A stretch of 64,000 bases of DNA from Cyanobacteria bacterium SBLK. Lineage in GTDB: Bacteria > Cyanobacteriota > Cyanobacteriia > Cyanobacteriales > Spirulinaceae. Of the stretch, positions 41,735-46,388 are shown one piece after another. Both the position numbers and the translations under genes were made by a program. Numbering within the stretch: position 1 is the stretch's first letter; each line of letters opens with the position of its first letter. Below the pieces are notes generated by a model. That model was not told where the DNA came from. It worked only from the letters and a program-made list of their open reading frames with translations, and did no database searches. The DNA is taken from assembly GCA_017746715.1 (NCBI GenBank), contig JAGHZQ010000015.1:88280-152279 (forward strand). Reading direction: 5' to 3'.

Positions 41735-41761
41735 AAAAAAGGGCAGGCATTACACCCACCC
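41735..41761 (-). terminator. intrinsic terminator of the Ro60/Y-RNA-like locus
   Basis: On the minus strand GGGTGGG and CCTGCCC pair (7 bp with two G-U pairs, 7-base loop), followed directly by six T. It begins 8 bases after the stop of the Ro60-like gene, closing the transcript that starts near 46353. Confidence 0.8.
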
Positions 41762-41768
41762 AGAAAAT

Positions 41769-43217
41769 TTATTTATCATTCCGCACCGGTAAAGGAGTCT
41801 CCAGAATCTCCATCAACAACTCCAGCCGAGACGGACGAGACAATAAAGGAATTAAGTTCGGTAGCGAGTAGTAGTCTCCTTCAAAGGTGAACGTATCTAC
41901 TTGCACCTCCTCAGTTCGTAACTTGCGTTCCACAAAATCAGAGGCACGACCCACTTTCACGATGATGACGTTGGGTTGTACGTTCAACTCCTTGCAATAT
42001 GCAGCAAATGCAGTATTAAAGTAAGGAGCGCAGTTGTCCCCCTCATCCGTGACTAAGATGAACTGTTCGACCACCTGTTTCCGCAAGCGCATGGCTTCCA
42101 CAGAACAGCCGATACTCGTTCCCCCACCCGCATGCAGGTGTTGAAAGGCTTTATCCCAGTCACTCAAGTTTTTACCAGAAGCCGTAATCGGATAAGGCAT
42201 AGTATCGAAAGCGTAGACAAACAAATCCGCCTCCGTAACCCCAGAAATCAAAGCCGCAATTTGCTTCCCGACTTCCAAAGCCAGATCCATCGAACCCGAC
42301 TTATCCACCAGCAAAGCCGTGGGTTTTTTAATCGACCCTTTTTGCTTCACTTGCGCGTCCATTACCTGCTCTAATTTCGCCGTGGTTTCTGCATCCAAAC
42401 CCGCAGCCTCCGCAGCCACCTTACCTTTCAAAGCCGAAACTCGCTTGCTGGACTTCGCCGCCTCCAATTTCTCATCGATCAGCGCTTTCACGTCTGGGTT
42501 ATCCAACGCGCCGCGTTCTTTGAGTGATTTGAGGTTGTTAATGACTTCTTGGGGAGTCATGGCGTTAATCAACGCCACCAACACCACGGGAGTCACTTGC
42601 TTCACTGCCCCGATCGCAATAGTATAAGGAATCTTATTCTCCACGATCGCCCGAGCTTGGTCGGCGGGAGTGTCTGCTTTTGCCAGCATTTTCACCGCGT
42701 AAGCCAAACTACCCACGGGAGGGACATCTTTAAACAAGATGGCATCGGCGCGAGGATTGGGCTTAATGTGAAGGGTGGCATACAAGTGTTTCATGGCCTT
42801 GCGACCCCGCAAAGCCGCGCGATCGAAGAATTCCGGTTTGGCTTCTCGGTGACGCAGGTAACGACGAACCGCCGTCCGCGCCGATCGCGGCATTTTATTA
42901 CGGTGTTGCTTCATGAAGTCCACGATCCGCGCCACTTGGTAAGGAGGGAAGTCTTGTAACATCATAAATCCGGCATCTCGGTGCTCCGTCAAGGCACTAG
43001 AGAGCAAGTTTCCGGTAAAAACTTCCTTATGGTCGCGCACGTCCCCATTTTTGCCGTACCAAGCCGCTAAGCGACCGTAAAACAACGGGTCGAGTTCGAT
43101 AATGGTTTTGTGAATGTCTGCAACTTCTTCCAGCTTGCGGTGAGGAGTCGTCAGCAAGCTATTGAGCATTTCCAAACGCAAATCGCGTTCCGTATCGTTC
43201 ATGGTTGCAATGGTCAT
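41769..43217 (-). CDS. Ro60/Rsr-type TROVE-vWA protein
   Basis: 482 residues. The N-terminal two thirds are alpha-helical (HEAT-like): [55 protein letters not shown], as expected for a TROVE ring. The C-terminal vWA domain has the full MIDAS set: DKSGSMD (305-311), Thr367 in GGGTSIG, and VTDEGD near 389-394. In animals and Deinococcus, Ro60/Rsr binds misfolded RNAs in the ring hole and Y RNA on its outer face, and Y RNA can tether it to PNPase. Family length is usually near 530, so this is a shorter form. The start has a perfect GGAGG 8 bases upstream. It is the last gene of a minus-strand locus that also holds eight Y-RNA-like RNAs. Confidence 0.78.
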
Positions 43218-43270
43218 TTGGGCTACCTCCTTAACTATTGTAGGGAAATTTAGGGAGGCAGTGCCGCCGT

Positions 43271-43308
43271 TATCAGTTATCAGTTACCAGTTATCAGTTA
43301 TCAGTTAT
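43271..43308. repeat. TTATCAG heptamer repeats
   Basis: Five to six tandem copies of TTATCAG/TTACCAG between the Ro60-like gene and RNA Y8. They resemble the slippage-prone heptamers at 23864-23919. Confidence 0.7.
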
Positions 43309-43369
43309 CTTTTCTTAGTTATCTTTTTTCACCGATAATTGATAATTGCCTGTTGATAATTGAAAAATG

Positions 43370-43445
43370 GCCGCGCAAGTTTGGAGGGCAGGATTTAGAT
43401 CGACTTGGAAATCGAGTGTGTATGCCCAACTTATGAGGGCGCGGC
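43370..43445 (-). ncRNA. Y-RNA-like RNA Y8 (minimal form)
   Basis: About 76 nt between the L7/L12-like and Ro60-like genes. The ends pair perfectly over 7 bp (GCCGCGC with GCGCGGC). Inside is the shared 5' element CCUCAUAAGUU and the 3' element AAACUUGCGC, then a second helix GGGCA/UGCCC, and the box UACACAC. The remaining loop (about 32 nt) has no tRNA-like arms. Conservation of the two strand motifs with the seven RNAs upstream is the main evidence. This form has only the presumed protein-binding stem. Confidence 0.7.
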
Positions 43446-43496
43446 GACATCTGCCAGTATAGCGTTTATTCGGGTTAATGCCAAGAGATTTTCACC

Positions 43497-43880
43497 CTAT
43501 TTGAGCGAGATAATTGCCCCGAAAGATTCGAGATTTTGTTTGATTTTTAAACCGTCTTCTCGAGTCACGGCTTGCTTGACAATACTGGGGGCAGAATTGA
43601 CCAAAGTTTTTGCATTGTTCAAGCCCAATCCCGTAACATTCCAAACCGCTCGAGTAATTGCTGCTTTTTTATTCTTTGGCGCAGTTTCAAGAACTACATC
43701 AACCATTGCGATCGCATCAGTTTCGGTTTTCAAACTTCCCCGAATGGGTGCAATAAACTTAACTTTCATCGGAGAGGCATCCACGCCGAAGTTTTTTTCA
43801 ATTTGTTTGACGAGTTCGGATGCTTCAACCAAGGTCAAAGTTTTCATTTGTTCGATAATTGTCATCACTTTATCAGCCAT
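43497..43880 (-). CDS. paralogue of ribosomal protein L7/L12 with altered hinge
   Basis: 127 residues. The N-terminal helical hairpin (IIEQMKTLTLVEASELVKQIEKNFGVDA, 8-35) matches the L7/L12 dimerisation domain. The C-terminal domain (VDVVLETAPKNKKAAI... TGLGLNNAKTLVNSAP... LESFGAIISLK) matches the factor-binding domain, including TGLGL at 83-87. The hinge is not the usual Ala/Gly-rich linker but SPMKVKFIAPIRGSLKTETD. Residues that contact elongation factors in E. coli L12 appear changed (positions equivalent to R73 and E82 are Trp and Asn by my alignment). It is not in an rplJ-rplL operon but between Y7 and Y8. ATG 43880 has GGGGAGG 8 bases upstream. Confidence 0.85.
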   Translation of the reverse strand: MADKVMTIIEQMKTLTLVEASELVKQIEKNFGVDASPMKVKFIAPIRGSLKTETDAIAMVDVVLETAPKNKKAAITRAVWNVTGLGLNNAKTLVNSAPSIVKQAVTREDGLKIKQNLESFGAIISLK

Positions 43881-43957
43881 TTGACTCACCTCCCCGAGTT
43901 CCGTAAGCGATTGATTATTTTAATATTTTGCATCTGTCTGAAAATTGGAGGAGTTAA

Positions 43958-44082
43958 GATTTCGCGCAAGTTAAGAAAGCGGTTGGTGATACGCGGGAAT
44001 TGAACCCGCAATCGCTTGATTTTGAGTCAAGTGCCTTACCATTAGGCGAGTATGTAAGCTCTCGAAATTAGGGCGCGAAATC
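43958..44082 (-). ncRNA. Y-RNA-like RNA Y7 with normally ordered tRNA-like module
   Basis: 125 nt. The ends form a perfect 10-bp helix (GAUUUCGCGC with GCGCGAAAUC). Then come the shared internal loop (CCUAAUUUC opposite UUAACUU) and a second helix GAGAGC/GCUUUC, then UUACAUAC. The inserted module reads in tRNA order: D arm GCCUAAUGGUAAGGC with G18G19, anticodon arm CUUGA-CUCAAAA-UCAAG, 5-nt variable loop, T arm GCGGGUUCAAUUCCCGC. The acceptor stem is reduced to AUAC/GUAU and then merges with the shared helix. Its D arm looks glutamine-like yet the loop would read CAA. It is not a functional tRNA. Confidence 0.82.
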
Positions 44083-45684: not shown

Positions 45685-45698
45685 AAATTCAGTTACCC

Positions 45699-45726
45699 GT
45701 AGGGACGTTGCATGCAACGTCCGTAC
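45699..45726. repeat. short palindromic element between Y3 and Y2
   Basis: GTAGGGACGTT-type sequence containing a perfect 20-bp palindrome (45703-45722, GGACGTTGCA then its complement). It resembles short interspersed palindromes common in cyanobacterial genomes. It could also form a hairpin in the array transcript and help separate or process the RNAs. Confidence 0.7.
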
Positions 45727-45801
45727 ACCAGTTACAATTCCAAATAGAACTGACAGAAAGATTTATTTTGAACTTTGAATTCATAATTTTGAGTTGATAG
45801 A

Positions 45802-45944
45802 TCCCGCACAAGTTTGTAAAGCTGTTTTCACAAGATGTCTTTTCCATTTAGACTACTAGCGCATGGATGCGCCAGGTGGGACTCGAACCCACATTATCCT
45901 CTTTACAGGAGATGCGTGTAGGCTTTAACCGTCAGGGTGCGGGA
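45802..45944 (-). ncRNA. Y-RNA-like RNA Y2 with circularly permuted tRNA-like module
   Basis: 143 nt. Ends UCCCGCAC/GUGCGGGA; loop CCUGACGGU/CAAACUU; second helix UAAAGC/GCUUUA; box CUACACGC. Module: an anticodon-arm-like hairpin CUC-CUGUAAA-GAG (the loop would read GUA), T arm GUGGG-UUCGAGU-CCCAC, an 8-bp acceptor stem CUGGCGCA/UGCGCUAG capped by UCCA, then a D arm GUC-UAAAUGGAAAA-GAC. Alternatively AUCUU/AGGAU re-forms the anticodon stem as in Y3. It has the same permuted design as Y3 and Y4. Confidence 0.82.
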
Positions 45945-45962
45945 GAAAGGTCGAAAAGTGTA

Positions 45963-46050
45963 TCCGCGCAACTTTGCAAAGCTATATTTACTAATGGTAT
46001 AACCCATCGTTATGATGATTGTATGTAAGCTATGCAGTCGGGGTGCGAAA
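45963..46050 (-). ncRNA. Y-RNA-like RNA Y1 (minimal form, first in the array)
   Basis: 88 nt, starting 12 bases after the stop of the small gene at 46063-46263. Ends UUCGCAC/GCGCGGA pair with one mismatch; CCCGACUGC is opposite AAAGUU; helix GCAUAGC/GCUUUGC; box UUACAUAC. The internal 45 nt are AU rich, with no T arm or D arm. The 3' motif has AAAGUU where the other RNAs have AACUU, so it is the most diverged member. Confidence 0.68.
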
Positions 46051-46062
46051 AAACTCGATAAT

Positions 46063-46263
46063 TTAACCGTAAACGGCTTCGGGACGAACGATCAAATCTC
46101 CACTTTGCGGGCGATCGATGACATAGTTGGAAAAGCGATCGCGATGGACGTCAAAATATTGCGCCAGTTGCGCTTTAACTTGAGTGTCGTTCATACCCGT
46201 ATTAATATTGACTTGGCGTTCGGCCACATCGTAAGAACGACCTTCAAAACGAACGTGAACCAT
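46063..46263 (-). CDS. small protein, possibly beta-grasp (ubiquitin-like), first gene of the Y-RNA-like locus
   Basis: 66 residues. The strand-strand-helix-strand pattern ([56 protein letters not shown]) would suit a compact beta-grasp fold; this is a guess from pattern. No C-terminal GG, although it ends in a single Gly (AVYG). The ATG has AGAGGATAAAGACA upstream, a usable Shine-Dalgarno. The gene sits between the promoter at 46360-46388 and RNA Y1. The compact, well-spaced coding frame supports a real gene. Function unknown. Confidence 0.75.
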
Positions 46264-46359
46264 TGTCTTTATCCTCTATATTTATCTCTAACAACTCGAA
46301 AAGTTTTTAAAAATCGGAAATCTTTTGGAATTGCGTTCCTTTTTTGTTCCCATGACTAC

Positions 46360-46388
46360 ATACTACAGAAGTGCTACACAATTGTCAA
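46360..46388 (-). promoter_or_regulatory. promoter of the Ro60/Y-RNA-like locus
   Basis: On the minus strand TTGACA (46383-46388), a 17-base spacer and TAGTAT (46360-46365): the -35 is consensus and the -10 is one base off consensus, with ideal spacing. Transcription would start near 46353, giving a leader of about 90 nt before the small gene. It is the best promoter match in the region and the only strong one I see for the whole locus. Confidence 0.75.

Follow-up and report, generated by a model that had tools for sequence, protein, structure and literature searches.

Known Y RNAs bind the exterior of Ro60, control access to its cavity and serve as tethers for effectors, and tRNA mimicry is the recognised module of bacterial Y RNAs. 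The YrlA module, for instance, is described as a substrate of DusA and TruB that tethers PNPase to Rsr (PMC8394870; see also PMC7790460). The stretch analysed here (the window) is a 64-kb sequence of Cyanobacteria bacterium SBLK (contig JAGHZQ010000015.1 of GCA_017746715.1, forward-strand positions 88,280 to 152,279), whose minus strand carries a unit (41735-46388) with a predicted Ro60-like gene and an array of Y-RNA-like RNAs sharing one constant handle but differing in the module that it bears. Sequence comparison confirmed a widespread Ro60-type ribonucleoprotein system with exchangeable translation-RNA modules, larger than had been proposed in an earlier note on this DNA, and with a function that we infer below. 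New relative to that note are the wide spread, the resemblance of the permuted tRNA class to YrlA, an RNA copying both the sarcin-ricin loop (SRL) and the GTPase-associated centre (GAC) in relatives and in the window genome, and further protein partners.

Like the Rsr-Y RNA-PNPase system of Deinococcus radiodurans (RYPER), the locus combines a predicted Ro60 fold containing a vWA domain with predicted closing-stem Y-type RNAs encoded beside the gene. Unlike RYPER, the protein is too distant in sequence for Pfam TROVE, up to eight RNAs occur per locus, the modules copy tRNAs and 23S rRNA elements, and two partners (the 66-aa protein sm66 and a 277-aa protein) are near-constant. The Salmonella rtcBA/rsr/Y RNA repair operons similarly group the genes for Ro60 and Y RNA with those for RNA-repair enzymes (PMC7790460), whereas RNA ligase and Tpt1 are found in a minority of loci here, and ThiF/E1-like proteins, EF-Ts and L12 paralogues are added. 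Among the matches listed from the open-access literature, no title or abstract opening mentioned an array of Y RNAs in cyanobacteria or a Y RNA that mimics 23S rRNA; whether the system is new to the literature is not certain.

From promoter to terminator, the unit comprised sm66, Y1-Y5, the basic protein bas244, Y6-Y7, an L7/L12 paralogue, Y8 and the 482-aa vWA protein (Ro60-like). The open reading frame (ORF) positions given in the earlier note recurred at the same coordinates in the ORF list:

46360-46388, minus strand: sigma-70-like promoter, TTGACA-17-TAGTAT (10/12 consensus matches)
46063-46263, minus strand: sm66, 66-aa protein with C-terminus RPEAVYG, suspected to be ubiquitin-like (ORF and homologues)
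45956-46056, minus strand: Y1, handle with a 40-nt module (finder score 58.4)
45802-45944, minus strand: Y2, permuted (YrlA-like) tRNA module (finder 66.5; Rfam YrlA 30.2 bits, E 8.5e-4)
45534-45684, minus strand: Y3, permuted (YrlA-like) tRNA module (finder 68.9; Rfam YrlA 31.1 bits, E 4.6e-4)
45370-45521, minus strand: Y4, permuted (YrlA-like) tRNA module (finder 67.1; Rfam YrlA 21.4 bits, E 0.29)
45138-45325, minus strand: Y5, 23S rRNA domain IV module around helix 69 (H69) (finder 67.3; 23S identity)
44248-44982, minus strand: bas244, basic 244-aa protein (ORF and homologues)
44117-44242, minus strand: Y6, tRNA module docked via its acceptor side (Rfam tRNA 38.9 bits; model R1 125.7 bits, Y6 being in the R1 training set)
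43958-44082, minus strand: Y7, tRNA module docked via its acceptor side (Rfam tRNA 53.0 bits; model R1 130.6 bits, Y7 being in the R1 training set)
43497-43883, minus strand: L7/L12 paralogue, dimerisation and C-terminal domains (PF00542 3.2e-19, PF16320 7.5e-11)
43370-43445, minus strand: Y8, short handle RNA directly before the Ro60-like gene, variant core GGGC/GCCC (read by eye)
41769-43217, minus strand: Ro60-like protein, HEAT-type helical domain and vWA domain with metal-ion-dependent adhesion site (MIDAS) residues (predicted fold)
41741-41761, minus strand: terminator-like hairpin, 9 pairs then TTTTTT

Handle RNAs were located with a finder built on the pattern closing stem - CCYNA - AGCYTACAY - module - GCTTT - RACTT - closing stem, at a threshold score of at least 46. 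On both strands of the whole window it returned exactly seven elements (Y1-Y7), all on the minus strand and all inside the unit. Y8 fell under the threshold because its inner stem GGGC/GCCC replaces AGC/GCU; it was identified by eye, and many relatives have a short RNA in a comparable position, immediately preceding the Ro60-like gene. The earlier note's array of eight was thus recovered for seven members, whereas Y8 is an assignment by eye backed by these short counterparts. Its idea of a shared handle with differing translation-RNA modules was borne out by the finder and by the tRNA, YrlA and 23S matches. Lying in front of the Ro60-like gene, Y8 could serve autoregulation. The 40-nt module of Y1 (45956-46056) had no recognised match.

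Handle RNAs were abundant in related loci. From 199 loci carrying the Ro60-like gene, the best 80 were taken (68-93% identical; public records, all cyanobacterial by title, Calothrix and Fischerella strains among them). In these loci (1.17 Mb), 325 elements scored at least 46, whereas the opposite strand gave 2 and a single Markov shuffle of every locus gave 5, which places the array far beyond chance; at a score of at least 60, the counts were 274, 0 and 0, respectively. At least one element was present in 76 of the 80 loci, and the four others (L002, L012, L022, L064) had 1.8 kb or less available upstream of the gene. All 62 loci with 8 kb upstream possessed at least one element, 44 possessed at least four, and the median was five. 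Relative to the start of the Ro60-like gene, 312 elements lay upstream and 13 after. Based on simple motif rules, the 325 elements comprised 135 acceptor-docked tRNA, 71 permuted tRNA, 28 H69, 15 SRL+GAC, 45 short and 31 other RNAs, and sequence comparison showed that modules were swapped between species.

The general fold consists of a closing stem, CCYNA opposite AACUU, a second stem (..AGC/GCU..), YACAYAC and the module. In the non-redundant alignment of the acceptor-docked class (41 RNAs: 39 of 115 from the loci and two from the window), 93.4% of cells were paired compared to 80.2 in shuffles, and 22 of 35 pairs showed two-sided changes, the 35 including a pair at columns 30-101 that was misplaced by one column and is unpaired in every sequence. 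Two-sided changes affected 199 cells compared to 57.1 ± 7.8 in shuffles, a value reached by none of 500 shuffles. The closing helix of these 41 sequences had 10 pairs, 8 of them with two-sided changes and 95.4% of cells paired; a covarying Y-RNA-type helix beside the Ro60-like gene, on which the earlier note had made its proposal depend, was therefore found across homologous loci. Two-sided changes were also present in the consensus folds of the permuted class (20/28 pairs; non-redundant alignment of 29 of 57 locus RNAs and three from the window), the H69 class (22/45 pairs; 16 of 20 non-redundant RNAs, 31 in all, leaving out the SRL-type L057 as well as L007, L048 and L076) and the SRL+GAC class (20/47 pairs; 12 of 13 non-redundant RNAs, without L052, together with L113 and L123).

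As for what the modules copy, Y6 and Y7 matched only positions 4-67 of the 71 in the Rfam tRNA model, with D, anticodon and T arms present and a shortened acceptor stem continuing into the handle; ARAGORN reported no tRNA gene in the window. A 5-bp/7-nt anticodon arm was found in 99 of 137 acceptor-docked RNAs; of those 99, 89 had U33 and 93 had a purine at position 37, as counted in a search without a U33 bonus (an earlier, U33-favouring search gave U33 in 91 of 99). The anticodon-like triplets varied (CUA 13, UAG 11, UAA 9, CAU 8). Y2, Y3 and Y4 scored weakly against Rfam YrlA (RF02553), all below its gathering threshold of 69 bits. The Y2 and Y3 alignments followed the permuted order of YrlA, T arm - closed acceptor - D arm, and this order would put the handle at the position of the anticodon loop; the class consensus fold contained the acceptor helix and the T arm but no D arm. 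Y2 and Y3 thus resemble YrlA in order, Y4 being matched more weakly, but the scores of the three (21-31 bits) stay under the gathering threshold, and the permuted class is only one of several module classes here.

Two other classes resembled 23S rRNA. Y5 was 90.9% identical to E. coli 23S positions 1909-1941 over 33 nt (E 5.6e-9), and in the H69-class consensus fold the module's two ends paired with each other to close an H69-like stem, so that the handle would sit at the H69 loop. SRL+GAC RNAs matched the sarcin-ricin loop at 2652-2665 (14/14 nt in five RNAs) and the GTPase-associated centre within 1037-1114 (74-83% identical), with consensus-fold helices at the places of what we take to be H42, H43 and H44. 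The window genome also possessed an SRL+GAC RNA (contig C83, 17633-17848). As read from sequence, one handle thus bears copies of two different 23S rRNA regions as well as tRNA copies docked in two or more geometries.

The protein encoded at the end of the unit is predicted to adopt the Ro60 fold over its full length, with a helical ring domain fused to a vWA domain. Its residues D305, S307, S309, T367 and D391, which we take to form the MIDAS motif DxSxS..T..D of the vWA domain, were invariant in 53 sequences (the window protein and 52 others, of 120 listed; a second protein alignment held the window protein and 60 others, of 120 listed). No match to Pfam TROVE (PF05731) was obtained, and it is therefore named Ro60-like, as a branch outside the Pfam family. 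The Ro60/Rsr type claimed in the earlier note was supported by the predicted fold, whereas the TROVE profile match that the note had asked for came out negative in Pfam; the full-length structural match was judged to outweigh this, and the model points to a divergent Ro60 branch missed by Pfam. A second, distant Ro60-like relative (27% identical) was encoded in the window genome on contig C27 (6325-7458; L136), with no handle RNA scoring at least 44 within 13 kb around that gene. A Chlorogloeopsis gene annotated as TROVE, which may or may not belong to the same branch, is reported to be strongly up after erythromycin, a translation inhibitor (PMC6424891).

The distribution of these components was compared across the same 99 genomes, searched for the Ro60-like gene, the tRNA-type RNA, the 277-aa protein, sm66 and the SRL-type RNA. 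A real Ro60-like gene was present in 37 genomes; G051 (E 7e-5) and G075 (a 54-aa fragment with a stop), though among 39 initial matches, were counted as negative, and G061 (E 2.9e-4, stops) was counted as lacking sm66. R1, the model of the tRNA-type handle RNA (applied also to the window and to 60 of the 80 related loci), gave matches in every genome because it also finds tRNAs, hence only best matches of at least 82 bits were counted. At this level, the tRNA-type RNA was found in 34 of the 37 Ro60-like-positive genomes and in none of the 62 others (best 57.4 bits), weak R1 matches in negative genomes being taken as tRNAs without individual checks and strict filters possibly losing weak matches. 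The corresponding figures were 37/37 and 1/62 (G039) for the 277-aa protein, 35/37 and 0/62 for sm66, and 29/37 and 1/62 (G026) for the SRL-type RNA motif, with no reversed-pattern matches. Overall, handle RNAs, sm66, the 277-aa protein and the Ro60-like gene showed near-strict co-occurrence in these sequence searches. The exceptions without a detected Ro60-like gene were G026, with an SRL-type RNA, and G039, with a partial 277-aa gene.

Among the protein partners, sm66 had a homologue in 60 of the 80 related loci and an invariant C-terminal glycine (26/26 aligned), and searches of Pfam, NCBIfam, PDB sequences and ubiquitin-like models gave no convincing relative, so that the beta-grasp fold suggested in the earlier note stays a conjecture. 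The 277-aa gene lay downstream in 36 of 81 loci (the 80 and the window locus), and its product has an invariant cysteine in GICLxG...FDLQSLV (Cys255, 42/42); in the window genome this gene was on contig C103 only, outside the window. ThiF-family genes were counted in 32 of the 81 loci, EF-Ts in 7, RNA ligase in 6 and Tpt1/KptA in 6, with domains assigned by Pfam/NCBIfam on one example each and counts lowered by loci ending at contig ends. The DRB0094-like RNA ligase scored 142.8 bits, under the NCBIfam cutoff of 151. EF-Ts is an extra copy, as another EF-Ts match was present in each of four genomes tested. The locus shares with PRTRC and other bacterial ThiF/ubiquitin-like cassettes a ThiF-family gene with a small protein ending in glycine, but the ThiF protein scored 42.4 bits, under the PRTRC_ThiF cutoff of 144.75, and sm66 matched no ubiquitin-like model. 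The L7/L12-like protein, present in 28 of the 80 related loci (29/81 with the window), contained L12 domains (PF00542, PF16320; TIGR00855 at 90.8 bits, over the cutoff of 84.4), and it is called a paralogue, in agreement with the earlier note, because a stronger L12 copy exists elsewhere in the genome (contig C97). bas244 had 474 relatives at E <= 0.001, those named being cyanobacterial, and its gene occurred in 39 of the 80 loci; the predicted model (predicted local distance difference test score, pLDDT, 78) gave no usable fold match. In 29 of the 81 loci, L050 and L058 among them, the array also contained a gene for a 148-aa protein of no recognised family, at about -0.7 kb relative to the Ro60-like gene.

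The same Ro60-like branch (46-52% identical) was encoded in one 595-kb phage record and five IMG/VR contigs of up to 390 kb. All six phage-type loci possessed the 277-aa and ThiF genes, four possessed sm66 and one EF-Ts; five carried handle RNAs (R1 matches of 67-86 bits), and the sixth (L126), with only 1.4 kb present upstream of the gene, gave no R1 match. On three phage contigs, seven 43-44-nt handle hairpins lay within tRNA-like sequences keeping open acceptor ends, near the D arm as judged by eye, at the following positions:

L122, 11033, 11292 and 12856: handle hairpins in tRNA-like genes
L124, 9025, 9165 and 9684: handle hairpins in tRNA-like genes
L128, 6860: handle hairpin in a tRNA-like gene

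A hairpin inside a tRNA-like gene is a third way of joining tRNA and handle. Phage-borne Ro60 is also represented by that of Thermus phage phiLo (PDB 9l5y) and by jumbo-phage TROVE proteins (PMC7824862), but the phage contigs studied here carry this branch, most with a handle-RNA array, together with 277-aa and ThiF genes. A Kovacikia minuta plasmid likewise carried sm66, Ro60-like, 277-aa and ThiF genes and handle RNAs, including the SRL+GAC type. By sequence, the locus is thus conserved in many cyanobacteria and in some giant-phage contigs.

The explanation that we favour, and to which we give about an even chance, is that the predicted Ro60-like protein and its Y-RNA-like array form an adaptor system, in which the constant handle likely binds the protein and the modules would be baits for proteins recognising the native tRNA or 23S element. 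The RNAs would be stable; as with the Y RNAs of known Ro60 particles, the handle would dock on the outer face of the Ro60-like ring, and the modules would tether tRNA- or rRNA-recognising enzymes or factors beside the ring and gate its cavity. Under stress, such a particle would survey, repair or turn over tRNA and 23S rRNA; its partners, in loci that encode them, would be RNA ligase, Tpt1 and proteins of the EF-Ts-like, L12-like and ThiF/sm66 types, and exchangeable modules on one handle would make it a plug-and-play particle watching over or repairing the translation machinery. Several observations weigh against this explanation: the missing Pfam TROVE match; three Ro60-like-positive genomes (G003, G009, G085) without a tRNA-type RNA by R1; ThiF, which was not found in the window or in the 10 kb around the 277-aa gene on C103, the rest of the genome not being searched; and the limitation of each partner to some of the 81 loci (RNA ligase, Tpt1 and EF-Ts in few, ThiF in 32, L12 in 29), so that no single partner explains the modules. 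One handle with tRNA and 23S copies in dozens of species, accompanied by a near-constant protein set, would turn the function of Ro60 particles into a testable set of baits, as each module names the kind of protein that it should catch; a divergent Ro60 branch and a phage connection are also added to the known Ro60 systems.

More tentatively, the system could be a modular off-ribosome translation replica common to cyanobacteria and giant phages, in which a Ro60-type ring shows exchangeable copies of tRNA, H69/domain IV, the sarcin-ricin loop and the GTPase-associated centre, alongside proteins resembling L12 and EF-Ts and a pathway of the E1/ubiquitin type, and traps, senses or repairs whatever acts on ribosomes and tRNAs.

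A possible but rather doubtful alternative is that the RNAs are decoys or sentinels against RNA-cutting toxins: the modules would copy targets of ribotoxins and anticodon nucleases (tRNA anticodon arms, H69-H71, the sarcin-ricin loop) and absorb or report the attack, RNA ligase and Tpt1 would repair the damage, and the phage copies would be counter-defence. The SRL core AGTACGAGAGGA was indeed unchanged in 14 of 14 aligned RNAs, although most were picked by the same motif with one mismatch allowed; the acceptor-docked modules keep the anticodon arm (99/137), mostly with U33 and purine 37; RNA ligase and Tpt1 genes lie nearby in some loci, and giant-phage contigs carry the same core genes. The permuted modules, however, appear from their sequence to be opened in the anticodon loop and would therefore be no bait for anticodon nucleases, and the GTPase-associated centre is, to our knowledge, not a classic nuclease target, which also counts against this alternative. 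PMC7790460 proposes YrlA as a competitive inhibitor of an anticodon nuclease, but also reports that in Salmonella the RecA-dependent nuclease leaves YrlA uncut.

It is unlikely that the system is instead an off-ribosome copy of the factor-binding site, with the SRL+GAC RNA, the H69 RNA, the tRNA modules and the L12 and EF-Ts paralogues capturing or regulating EF-Tu and other translational GTPases. In favour of this reading, a single RNA joins GAC to SRL, the genomes tested hold another, stronger copy of L12 and EF-Ts besides these paralogues, and EF-Ts also occurs on a phage contig; yet neither tRNA class appears to have a free acceptor end, so that the usual charging of these modules and their binding by EF-Tu would be precluded, and the paralogues are limited to 28 of 80 (L12) and 7 of 81 (EF-Ts) loci. 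A functionless graveyard of tRNA/rRNA pseudogenes or a repeat family, as the lack of ARAGORN tRNAs in the window and the varying anticodon-like triplets might suggest, is all but refuted by conservation, given covariation in all four classes tested, single-strand orientation, the fixed handle and the co-occurrence with the Ro60-like gene over 99 genomes.

Concerning the borders of the unit, both the near-consensus promoter and the terminator described in the earlier note were present, but promoter-like and terminator-like sites were not more frequent in this region than in shuffles. Adjoining the unit, on the opposite strand, was a gene for a Uma2-type putative endonuclease (window positions 40805-41473).

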